DNA from: Methylacidimicrobium tartarophylax
Lineage (GTDB): Bacteria > Verrucomicrobiota > Verrucomicrobiia > Methylacidiphilales > Methylacidiphilaceae
Length of the DNA: 50,797 nucleotides
NCBI RefSeq assembly: GCF_902143375.2
Contig: NZ_CABFVA020000026.1
Coordinates: 1-50,797 of the forward strand
Direction: 5' to 3'
Positions 13,073 through 33,153 of this stretch are shown one piece after another; positions within the stretch are counted from its first letter, which is position 1; every line of letters starts with the position of its first letter. Made by a program: the position numbers and the translations under genes. A model generated the notes under the pieces. The model saw only the letters and a program-made list of their open reading frames with translations. It was not told the origin of the DNA and made no database searches.

Positions 13073-14242
13073 ATGGTTCCGACTCGCGATCGCGGCAAAC
13101 AGAACGACGCCGCGAGAAACGTCTGGCGCAGCTCCAAGGCGGCTCAGGCGGTCGCCGCCTTTCTGTTGGTGTCGCTGCCCATAACTGGTCTGGCGGAGAG
13201 CATCCGCCTCGACCGAGCCGATCCGCCGAACGAAGCAATCGTCCGGGTAGTCGCCTATCAACAAGGCCATGATCGCGGCATTGTCCGAATGACTGGAACC
13301 GGTTTTTTTGTCAATCCGCATGGGCAGCTCATCACGAATCGTCATCTCTTGTCGCGGGCGGTCTTCTGCTCGGTGCTGGTTCACGGCGTCGAGCCGTTCC
13401 GGGTCGATCGCATCTTGGCGGAAGCAGGAGATCTGCTCTTGGTACAGATTGCTCTCCCTCCTGGCGTAAAGGTGGGAAGTCTGCAGCTTCGCAAGAGCCG
13501 GCCGGTTCCGGGGGAACCGATCCGGATCCAAGGGTATCCTCTGGGCATCGGACCTACCACGGCCACAGGAAAGGTGATCGGGTTTCGTCAGCACCCTTAC
13601 CACGGATCTCTTTCCTTCGTTGTGGATGTCCCCACCTTTGCCGGTAATAGCGGGGGACCGGTCCTCGATGAGAAGGGGGAGGTCATCGGAGTCTCGACGT
13701 TCCGTTCGCTGGAGGGACCGAGCAGGCTCGGAGGCGCGCTCTGCCCGTACATCCTGATGGAAGAGAGCCGGGTTGTCGATCTTGCGTTTGAGGATTGGTC
13801 TCGGCGAACCAGAGGAGGAAGAGGTGCCGTCGGTTTCGCCGCAAAAGGATGGAGGGCGTTACAGCGCAGAGAAACCCGCTCGGCCCGAGTCTATTTTGCG
13901 TCGGCTCTCCGAAATCAATCCAAGGCTCCATTGGTCTATCAAGGACTTGCCGAAGCTCTCTTGGAGAGTGGAAAAGCGGAGGAAGCCGCCTCGGCTCTCT
14001 CGACCGCAATCGAGGAGAGACCGAAAGATTTCCTCGCTCACCTTCGACTTGCGTCCGTCTATCAACAGCTCGGGAAGCCGGAATTGGCAGCTTCGCAGGA
14101 AGCAATTGGCCAAAGGATCGAATGGGCGATCTACTCGCGAATCGAGACGGAGGTTGCGGCGCGCGAGGAGACCGGCCTTCCCGGTCTCTGGCAAAAGGCG
14201 CGCTTTATTTTTCAGGGACCGGCTGAGTCCCATACCGATTAA
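13073..14242 (+). CDS. Secreted trypsin-like serine protease with C-terminal TPR repeats
   Basis: A signal peptide (AVAAFLLVSLPITGLAES) is followed by an S1-type protease domain with an apparently complete triad: His in LITNRHLL, Asp in AEAGDLLLVQI and Ser in FAGNSGGPVLD. The last 150 residues form helical repeats resembling TPRs (ARVYFASALRNQSKAPLVYQ; AEEAASALSTAIEERPKDFL). No PDZ domain is visible. It probably cleaves or binds envelope proteins. The open frame begins at 12899, but the ATG at 13073 gives a signal peptide with a 20-residue N-region; the start is uncertain. Its stop codon shares the sequence TTAA with the stop of convergent rbfA. Confidence 0.75.
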   Translation: MVPTRDRGKQNDAARNVWRSSKAAQAVAAFLLVSLPITGLAESIRLDRADPPNEAIVRVVAYQQGHDRGIVRMTGTGFFVNPHGQLITNRHLLSRAVFCSVLVHGVEPFRVDRILAEAGDLLLVQIALPPGVKVGSLQLRKSRPVPGEPIRIQGYPLGIGPTTATGKVIGFRQHPYHGSLSFVVDVPTFAGNSGGPVLDEKGEVIGVSTFRSLEGPSRLGGALCPYILMEESRVVDLAFEDWSRRTRGGRGAVGFAAKGWRALQRRETRSARVYFASALRNQSKAPLVYQGLAEALLESGKAEEAASALSTAIEERPKDFLAHLRLASVYQQLGKPELAASQEAIGQRIEWAIYSRIETEVAAREETGLPGLWQKARFIFQGPAESHTD

Positions 14243-14616
14243 CCGCTTTCGGCCGGCGGGTTCTGGTGCGGGACTTGCTGCGTCTCGATTTCCTGAAGGA
14301 TGCGTAAGATGCGATCGCCTCGTTCCAGGGAATCATCGAAGCGAAACGTGAGTTGGGGAGTGAACTTGGATTGGAGCTTCTTTCCTAGGCGATGCTGCCA
14401 CTCCCTTCGATGACGATGGAGCAGGGAGAGCAACTTATCCCTCGGAATGGGAGACTCCCATGCGCTGATAAAGACGAAGGCTTCCTTTAGATCAGGGGTC
14501 GTTTCGACCGCGGAAATCGTGAGGAGCAATCCTTCGAGCAAGACCTCCCTTTGAAAGAACTGAGCAAGCTCCTTTCGGATGACTTGAGACACCCTGATGG
14601 CTCGATGTGTACCCAT
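14239..14616 (-). CDS. rbfA: Ribosome-binding factor A
   Basis: This 125-aa protein has the KH-like fold of RbfA, a 30S maturation factor that acts on 16S rRNA helix 1. Recognisable stretches are RAIRVSQVIRKELAQFFQRE near the N-terminus, LTISAVETTPDLKEAFVFIS, and LGKKLQSKFTPQLTFRFDDSLERGDRI split over the C-terminal strand. It is the last gene of nusA-infB-rbfA, with a 130-bp gap after infB. Confidence 0.9.
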   Translation of the reverse strand: MGTHRAIRVSQVIRKELAQFFQREVLLEGLLLTISAVETTPDLKEAFVFISAWESPIPRDKLLSLLHRHRREWQHRLGKKLQSKFTPQLTFRFDDSLERGDRILRILQEIETQQVPHQNPPAESG

Positions 14617-14748: not shown

Positions 14749-16650
14749 TCAGAGGCTTTGAGGCACTCGCTCCAACTGATAACACTGAATGATATCGTTC
14801 GGCTCGTAATCATCGAAATTGCCGAGGCGCATGCCGCACTCCAGCCCCGCGCGAACCTCCGGGGCTTCATCTTGAAAGCGCTTGAGAGTTTGGATGCTCC
14901 CGTCGTAAATCGGCTGCTTGCCACGGAGGACCCGTGCCTGCGCTTTTCGGACCATCCGGCCCGATTGCACCAGGACACCCGCAACGGAAAACTTGTTGAG
15001 CTCAAACACCTTTTTGACGAGCGCGGTCCCAAGCACGGTTTCGCGGAGTTCCGGTTCGAGCAGTCCTGCCATCGCGTCCCGCACTTGATCGACCAGCTCG
15101 TAAATTACGCTGAAGAGCTTAATCTGGACCCCCTCGCGCTTGGCGGCGGCAGCCGCCGAACTATCGGTTTTGACATTGAAGCCAATCACGATGCCCTCGG
15201 AAGCTTTTGCGAGAAGGATATCCGATTCGGTGACGGGTCCGGCCGCCGAGTGAATCACCGAAAGTTCGACCTTTTTGCTCGGAATCTTCTCAAGCTGGCC
15301 GACCAGCGCTTCAATCGATCCCTGGGTGTCGGCCTTGAGGACTAGGTGTAAGGTCTTGCGTTGCCCTTCTGCGATTGCCGCGAAGAGATTCTCCAGCGTG
15401 ACCTTCGGACCCACTTCCTGGCGCGGGCGTTTCAACAAGGCCAGTCGTTCCTCTGCAATCTGCCTTACCCTGCGCTCATCGCTTTCTACGAGGAGCTCTT
15501 CTCCCGGAGAAGGAAGGCCGCTTAGGCCCGTTACCTTGACAGGGGTGGACGGTCCTGCTTCACGAACCGTCTTCCCGAGGTCATTGATCAGCGCCCGAAC
15601 TCTCCCCCAATAGGGGCCGCAGAGCACGACGTCGCCGGGACGCAGGGTCCCTTTCTGAACCAAGATGCTCGCCGTCGGTCCGCGACCGGTCTCCATTTGT
15701 GCTTCGATCACCCGTCCGACCGCGGGGCCGTCGAAAAGGGCACGCAGCTCGAGAACCTCGGCCTGGAGAAGAATCATCTCCAGAAGATGGTCGATTCCTT
15801 TCCCTTTCAGGGCCGACACCTCGCAGAAGATGGTTTCGCCACCAAACTCTTCGGGAGCGAGACCTCGCTCCTGAAGCTGGGTTTTAACCCGGAGCGGATT
15901 GGCGCCGGGCGCATCGATCTTGTTGATGGCGACTATGATCGGAACGTTGGCCGCTCGGGCATGATCGATCGCCTCGATCGTTTGGGGCATTGCACCGTCA
16001 TCGGCCGCCACGACGAGAACGACGATATCGGTGATCGAAGCTCCGCGAGCCCTCATCGCGGTAAAGGCTTCGTGGCCGGGCGTATCGATGAAAGTGATCG
16101 ATTTGCCTCCATGATGGATCGTGTAGGCACCGATATGCTGGGTGATCCCCCCTGCCTCTCCTGCCGCCACTCGGGTATGCCGAATCGCATCCAAAAGAGT
16201 CGTCTTCCCGTGGTCGACGTGGCCCAGGAAGGCCACGACCGGTGAGCGAAGCTGTAAGTCGGGCGTCACCTCCGGCGCCGGCGGCGGTTCTTCCACGACC
16301 TTTGGAGCCGGCGGAGGAGGCCCATGCCGTTCCTTGCGCTCCGTTTGGATCTCAAAACCCATGCGAGCGGAAACCTTTTTGGCGACATCCTCGTCCAAAA
16401 GCTGGGTCAGCGTTGGGAAGATGTTCAACTCCATCAGGTGGTGGACCATCTGGAAGGGCTTGATTCCCAATAGGCCGGCCAGATCTTTGACGGCAATCGG
16501 TCCTCGAAGGGAGATCGTCTTTCTGCCCTCCGCAGCGGAATCGGCGGGAGTCTCCTTCAGAGTTTCTTCCATGGCAGCTACCGGGCTCGCACTGCTCGTC
16601 GGAGGATCCTTTCGTTTCGGAGGAGAAATGGTCTGCTTGGTTTTCGGCAT
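14749..16650 (-). CDS. infB: Translation initiation factor IF-2
   Basis: This GTPase delivers initiator tRNA to the 30S subunit. All G motifs are present: [26 protein letters not shown] and SAL. The C-terminal C1/C2 domains follow. At 633 aa it is short: the N-terminal region before the G domain is only about 135 residues and contains one IF2-N-type domain ([22 protein letters not shown]) and a proline-rich linker. Most Gram-negative IF-2 proteins carry a much longer N-terminus. It sits 15 bp after nusA. Confidence 0.96.
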
Positions 16651-16665
16651 GAAATACTCGAGGGC

Positions 16666-17919
16666 TTAAGAAGCTTTGGCACAAAGCCGCGCGTTTTCAC
16701 GCATTTTCTTTACAGTCGCTAAATCAACTTCGGGAAGAACCGAGGCCAGATCCGTCTCTTCGCTTTCGGCTACGGCGGCCGGACTCAAAAAGCCTGCCCG
16801 TACGATCTGCTCCGCCGTCGACTGATCCACAGAGAGTGCGGTTGCCATCTCCTCGGTTGCTCGGGCCAGCTTTTGCGCAAAGTTCTCTTCCGCAGATTGC
16901 TCCCGGGCGACATCGATTTCCCACCCGGTGATCTTGCTGGCGAGCCACGCGTTCTTCCCTTTTCGTCCCAGGGCGATGGAGTAATTCTCTTCGTCCACCA
17001 CAACCTTCACGCGCTTGCGGGCCTCATCCAACTCGACGCTTTTGATCCGAGCCGGCTTGAGGGCTTCGACGGCCAACTCGGCAACATCGGGTGACCAGCG
17101 GAAGAGGTCGATCTTTTCGATGTGGAGCTCCCGCACGATATTCTTGACCCGTGCACCGCGTACGCCCACGCAGGCTCCCACCGGATCGATCTTCGGGTTG
17201 GCGCTCCATACGGCGATTTTTGTGCGAAATCCGGGCTCTCTGGCCATAGCCTTGATCTCGACCGTATGATCCGCCACTTCACTCACTTCCAGTTCCAGCA
17301 GCTTGCGAACAAAGTTGGGATGGCTGCGCGAGAGGAGAATTTGGGGCCCGTGCGGGGTGTTGTCCACCGCAACCACATAGGCGCGAATCCGATCCCCGAT
17401 CACATACTCCTCGGCGGGTACTCGCTCACGTGCCGCCATGACGCCTTCATAGCGACCGAGATCCAGGATCACATCCGAGCGCTCGAAACGGCGCACGGTC
17501 CCCATCACGATGTGATCCACACGATCCTTGAATTCGGCGAGCACCATCTCCCGCTCGATCGAACGGATCGTTTGATTGATCGACTGCTTGAAAACTTGCG
17601 CGGCGATGCGACCAAAGTCCTTTGGGGTCACCTCCACATCGATCAACTGCCCCAACTGGGCCGAGGGGTCCATCTCCTTGGCGCGCCTCAGGGAAACCTG
17701 GTCTCGGGGATCGACGACCTTCTCCACGACCTCAAGATTCGCCCTCGCCGTGATTTTGCCGGTCTTCGGGTGGATTTCTACCCGCAAATCTCGCGCCGGC
17801 CCGATACTCTTGCGGGCCGCGGCGAGGAGAGCCGACTGCATGGCTTCCAGAAAGGTTTCTCTACGAATCCCCTTCTCCCTCGCCATGTATTCGATGATGG
17901 CCAAGACTTCTTGATTCAT
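16666..17919 (-). CDS. nusA: Transcription termination/antitermination factor NusA
   Basis: This RNA polymerase-binding factor modulates pausing, termination and antitermination. The 417-aa protein has the N-terminal polymerase-binding domain ([18 protein letters not shown]), an S1 domain (about 135-200, [16 protein letters not shown]), two KH domains ([27 protein letters not shown]), and a C-terminal helix-hairpin-helix tail ([19 protein letters not shown]). The frame is open to 17943, but the ATG at 17917-17919 has GGAGAG just upstream and the canonical N-terminus. The usual upstream gene rimP is absent; the promoter and a terminator hairpin lie directly in front. Confidence 0.95.
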
Positions 17920-17945
17920 GACTCTCTCCGGCGATACTTCCAAAG

Positions 17946-17974
17946 AAAAAAGTGGAAACCCTGCAAGTTTCCAC
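17946..17974 (-). terminator. Intrinsic terminator in the nusA leader (probable attenuator)
   Basis: On the minus strand GTGGAAAC and GTTTCCAC pair perfectly over 8 bp around a 7-base loop (17952-17974). They are followed at once by six T residues (complement of the A-run at 17946-17951). It lies 27 bp before the nusA start and downstream of the nusA promoter. No gene precedes it on this strand, because lpxI diverges. It therefore can only affect transcripts heading into nusA. Confidence 0.8.
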
Positions 17975-18006
17975 CTTTCCTTTGTAGCAGAATCGCCTTA
18001 CCGAAA

Positions 18007-18035
18007 AAATTACGAACGCTTCCTCCAACGGTCAA
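18007..18035 (-). promoter_or_regulatory. Sigma-70-type promoter for nusA-infB-rbfA
   Basis: Reading the minus strand, TTGACC (18030-18035) and TAATTT (18007-18012) are separated by exactly 17 bp. The predicted transcription start is near 18000, giving a leader of about 80 nt that contains the terminator at 17946-17974. Confidence 0.7.
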
Positions 18036-33080: not shown

Positions 33081-33153
33081 GGCGGCCGACGGGACTCGAA
33101 CCCGCAACAGCCAGAACCACAATCTGGAGCTCTACCATTGAGCTACGGCCGCC
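33081..33153 (-). tRNA. tRNA-His (anticodon GTG)
   Basis: The minus strand folds into a full cloverleaf. The acceptor stem GCGGCCG pairs with CGGCCGC, T8-A9 follow, and the D-arm starts GCTC. The anticodon stem-loop is CCAGATTGTGGTTCTGG with GTG in the loop, and the T-arm is GCGGGTTCGAGTCCCGT. The extra G-1 (33153) pairs with C73 (33081), the hallmark of histidine tRNA. CCA is not encoded. It lies just after convergent ybgC. Confidence 0.97.

Follow-up and report, generated by a model that had tools for sequence, protein, structure and literature searches.

The rimP-leader (Naville and Gautheret 2010, PMC2965389) is a short terminator with a GGGc...gCCC stem that stands before rimP-nusA-infB, and it was described there as the most widespread attenuator. 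NusA was proposed as its effector, and the paper cites repression of the E. coli operon by NusA. The same description left undecided whether RimP or NusA is the sensor. In E. coli the sequence GGGCTTTAGGCCC-T7 precedes rimP. For B. subtilis, NusA-stimulated termination in the leader of nusA is among the statements made in PMC12288461. In the rimP-nusA operon of S. agalactiae both short and long transcripts have been mapped, and the leader stop lies 31 nt after the start site (PMC4448216).

How does the nusA leader of Methylacidimicrobium tartarophylax compare? We analysed a stretch of 50,797 nucleotides, referred to below as the window. As in the rimP-leader, a short promoter-proximal intrinsic terminator lies between the promoter and the first gene of a nusA-infB operon; because rimP is absent, that first gene is nusA itself. 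The two also share a G-rich 5' arm and a C-rich 3' arm, the lack of an antiterminator, a signature unique to the operon and NusA as the proposed effector. They differ in that the window contains no rimP gene, and in that its stem reads GGA/TCC and so departs from the GGGc(...)gCCC signature. As far as PMC12288461 describes the B. subtilis nusA leader, whether transcription reaches the gene is there, too, decided by a stop within the 5' leader; however, that operon starts with rimP (ylxS), and NusA dependence was tested there whereas we infer it here. With S. agalactiae (PMC4448216) the predicted leader has in common that its RNA would be very short, that transcription would stop some 30 nt from where it starts, and that NusA feedback is proposed; in that organism the RNA ends were mapped and rimP is present.

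A device of this kind has thus been known since 2010, and its interpretation as an attenuator is well supported and not new. Three things are added here: a phylum in which no rimP was detected has kept the device immediately ahead of nusA, the signature of the stem has drifted, and a helix can enclose the terminator.

Promoter, terminator and operon

The operon lies on the minus strand. It consists of nusA (16669..17919, ATG at 17919), which encodes a protein of 417 aa with NusA_N and NusA-type KH domains and is both the regulated gene and the likely effector, followed by infB (14752..16650), which encodes IF2, and rbfA (14242..14616). Among named organisms, Methylacidimicrobium cyclopophantes and Verrucomicrobia bacterium LP2A are the closest relatives. 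The neighbouring gene lpxI (LpxI_N, LpxI_C) diverges from nusA on the plus strand. A bidirectional terminator was rejected, since all that the plus strand offers after the hairpin is CTTTCC, which would make a poor tail for a terminator. An insulator against upstream transcription was rejected as well, since there is no co-directional gene upstream and the terminator lies downstream of the operon's own promoter.

The -35 element TTGACC (18030..18035, minus strand) and the -10 element TAATTT (18007..18012, minus strand; TAnnnT in relatives) are separated by a spacer of 17 nt. They match the consensus at 5/6 and 3/6 positions, respectively. Because the -10 box matches at only three positions, a simple consensus scan does not list this promoter, and the case for it rests on conservation. 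The -35 box is kept in the genus and in the order: TTGAC stands upstream of the hairpin in all leaders of the order read with a hairpin, except L029 (TTGCCG). Enrichment extends across the phylum, where TTGAC and TAnnnT at a spacing of 15-18 nt precede 67 of 106 hairpins, against 0.9 expected. The genus alignment shows hardly any change in the -35 box, hairpin and U-tract or in the segment just ahead of the ribosome-binding site, while the bases around the -10 box vary.

From the position of the -10 element we place the start site near 17999, which gives a predicted leader of about 80 nt (17920..17999, minus strand) and a predicted terminated form of about 50-58 nt. TAATTT (18012-18007) is separated by 32 nt from the start of the hairpin at 17974, and about 25 nt would lie between the start site and the hairpin. 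The terminator hairpin, GTGGAAAC-TTGCAGG-GTTTCCAC (17952..17974, minus strand), is supported by sequence, conservation and a covariance model. Its 5' arm GTGGAAAC (17974-17967) and 3' arm GTTTCCAC (17959-17952) form eight perfect pairs around the loop TTGCAGG. There follows the U-tract TTTTTTCTTT (17942..17951, minus strand), which is kept in the genus: T6 at 17951-17946, then CTTT. The nusA ATG lies 27 nt from the end of T6. The original prediction had named a TTGACC-N17-TAATTT promoter on the minus strand, an 8-bp perfect hairpin with six T residues, and the nusA start 27 bp further on; read directly, these coordinates and counts are correct, and the promoter box is conserved in relatives.

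Might the leader also form an antiterminator? In the leader folds no competing structure precedes the U-tract, and hence no antiterminator is visible. One candidate, the upstream GGAAAG, was rejected; it could form no more than about 5 pairs with the 3' arm, and relatives have not kept it (L005 and L007, for example, have GAAAAGG). The sequence GGGAACUC may resemble the NusA KH site in the rrn leader of M. tuberculosis.

Conservation of the terminator

Conservation of the hairpin in related genomes was set beforehand as one point on which the prediction might fail. The stem is kept: we read the leader in 49 other genomes of the order, and 48 have the hairpin at the same place. In a first set of 30 nusA loci, which included that of the window and reached down to 58 percent NusA identity, every locus has a GTGG.../...CCAC hairpin with a T-run. 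The same holds for 19 of 20 further leaders of the order, the exception, L042, having degenerate arms. Conservation across the order excludes a chance origin of the hairpin.

The signature belongs to this operon. The strict hairpin pattern has one site per genome, and this is invariably the nusA leader. In 37 of 60 genomes of the order we found GTGGRAAC..GTTYCCAC, each time as a single copy and at nusA only; the backwards control occurs in 4. With a covariance model of 27 leaders, the site at 17942-17981 reaches 51 bits and the next unrelated site in the same genome 19 bits. Because the model was built from leaders of the order, their own scores are not independent, while the absence of other sites is; as a search for a regulon, the model gave no second strong site in the window's own genome. 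Matches away from nusA appeared in two genomes of genus g12 (G026:C9:263981-264017, 33 bits; G034:C197:4373-4411, 30 bits).

Rfam, at gathering and at permissive thresholds, returned nothing credible for the nusA leader. The family RF01770 (rimP), which represents one form of the rimP-leader, has no match in the genome at E <= 10; of 14 control genomes, a single one scores above the family's cut-off. Within the window Rfam matches nothing but a tRNA gene at 33081-33152 on the minus strand.

Is it the pairing or the sequence of the stem that is conserved? In the alignment of 27 leaders 89 percent of the cells pair, and pairing falls to about 60 percent when the partner is slid by one column. 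Covariation scores 0.226, compared with 0.169 for shuffled alignments, and none of 500 shuffles came as high. The column pair 12-30 forms a series, with A-U in 12 leaders, G-U in 8 and G-C in 7; three G-C pairs are invariant and thus uninformative on pairing. Since related sequences can exceed shuffles without structure, these values support rather than prove that selection acts on the stem pairing. Columns 8, 10 and 11 are invariant across the 27 leaders.

Of 134 leaders from across the phylum, 106 have a terminator-like hairpin no more than 200 nt from the nusA start, where dinucleotide-preserving shuffles would give 15.5. These leaders are not independent of one another, as several belong to the same genera. 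A sequence-anchored search (GYGGD, its complement and a T-run) also returned 106 leaders, against 0.2 expected from mononucleotide shuffles, an optimistic expectation in that the pattern was picked after seeing the data. The phylum stems are mostly GTGGG/CCCAC. Among 80 distinct stems the third pair is G-C in 57, G-U in 13 and A-U in 10, so that the usual core is GGG/CCC; relatives within the phylum thereby carry the core of the rimP-leader. In the window's family the core is GGA/TCC, and relatives show G-U at the same pair. On this comparison of sequences, the family's stem has drifted from GGG/CCC to GGA/TCC through G-U intermediates.

No terminator was detectable in about 20% of the phylum leaders, including those of both 0.9-Mb genomes of family f14; the device can therefore be lost. 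In these two reduced genomes (L118 and L127) the TTGAC box is kept before nusA, and no T-run terminator was seen.

Absence of rimP and the choice of effector

A search with RimP domain profiles found no match in the genome. RimP_N matched none of 288 Verrucomicrobiota genomes, and RimP_C none of 115; of the 14 control genomes, 10 gave matches to both profiles. Conceivably there is a RimP that has diverged beyond the reach of either profile. The claim that rimP is missing and that the device adjoins nusA agrees with these searches, in the genome itself and phylum-wide (0/288). Elsewhere rimP is widespread, and 30S maturation in the Verrucomicrobiota must manage without RimP or through a diverged replacement.

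What, then, does the device sense? Since it is kept directly before nusA in the absence of a detectable rimP, RimP is unlikely to be the effector. The Verrucomicrobiota resemble a rimP deletion made by nature in which the leader before nusA was kept, so that the device would answer to NusA or to another product of the operon. By analogy with the systems described above, NusA would be the effector.

In our view the leader probably serves the nusA-infB-rbfA operon as a transcription attenuator, acting in negative feedback by NusA, where both the dependence on NusA and termination in vivo are what we infer. RNA polymerase would start near 17999 and, within about 50 nt, make the weak hairpin and the U-tract. 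With NusA plentiful, the polymerase would pause at the hairpin and release a short leader RNA. With NusA scarce, it would read through and more NusA would be made, a negative feedback that needs no antiterminator. Conservation together with close precedents (PMC2965389, PMC12288461, PMC4448216) strongly supports the originally predicted promoter-proximal attenuation of nusA. A literature search found no RNA-end or biochemical data for verrucomicrobial nusA leaders and no transcript maps for Methylacidiphilum. The leader offers a compact template, of about 80 nt, for tests of NusA feedback outside the Proteobacteria and Firmicutes.

The conservation of stem sequence bears on two other readings. 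The invariance of columns 8, 10 and 11 in the 27 leaders, which goes beyond pairing, could reflect another RNA-binding protein: the attenuator might answer to NusG, IF2 or a ribosomal protein, for example, that recognises the GTGG(R)AAC stem, and a sequence-recognising protein was argued for in the same way for the rimP-leader (PMC2965389). We regard this as unlikely, given that the device abuts nusA in a phylum where no rimP was detected, and given the NusA feedback stated for other bacteria in PMC12288461 and PMC4448216. Alternatively the terminator might be a fixed, unregulated brake, a weak terminator that lets a constant fraction of transcripts of a strong-promoter operon read through. 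The leader, just 80 nt or so in length, has neither a ligand domain nor an antiterminator, as such a brake would have it. But a brake has no need of a conserved stem sequence, and since NusA generally stimulates intrinsic terminators in B. subtilis (PMC8060035), some feedback would be hard to avoid; we judge this reading quite improbable.

The helix enclosing the terminator

In many leaders the segment upstream of the hairpin can pair with a segment past the U-tract, closing just before the ribosome-binding site. In the window the 5' half is GGCGAT (17992..17997, minus strand) and the 3' half ATCGCC (17930..17935, minus strand), which follows the U-tract and immediately precedes the ribosome-binding site. 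The fold is supported by invariance in the genus and by shuffles (p 0.01-0.05). The halves are GATTACGGCAC/GTGCCGTGATC in L022 and GTCCGGCA/TGTCGGGC in L108. When flanks were shuffled, 19 of 63 leaders reached p<0.05; when flanks were re-paired at random between leaders (swap test), the order gave z=6.6 (p=0.0002) and the remainder z=3.7 (p=0.0004). Leaders of family f12 have no enclosing helix. The helix occurs in many Verrucomicrobiota lineages, whereas PMC2965389 reports no larger conserved element for the rimP-leader.

By the time the polymerase makes the 3' half of the enclosing helix it has already left the U-tract behind, so this helix cannot decide termination and can act on read-through RNA only. 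In such RNA this second helix would close around the terminator, leaving the ribosome-binding site single-stranded just beyond it. The read-through leader folds as one long hairpin, extending from about 2 nt from the inferred 5' end to the ribosome-binding site. That the helix serves in 5'-end protection or in RNase III processing of the mRNA is our guess as to its function.

Could the hairpin chiefly be a stabiliser of the mRNA 5' end or an RNase III site, its T-run incidental? The single long fold and the swap test within the order would suit such a role, and the E. coli operon has RNase III sites (PMC6511841). However, hairpin and T-run are kept together throughout the order, while some lineages, such as family f12, have no enclosing helix, and this explanation seems to us very improbable. 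The attenuator may still have a second layer: a NusA-sensed terminator inside a helix that forms only upon read-through and sets the stability or translation of the nusA mRNA, kept across a phylum without rimP. We put this forward tentatively, as a possibility. If true, one element would control both transcription and the fate of the message.

In L017-L025 (genus g13, family f9) the sequence CGGTCCGCGCCTGCGGTGGGA is near-invariant upstream of nusA; it could pair with sequence past the U-tract, though part of the terminator stem would have to open for this.
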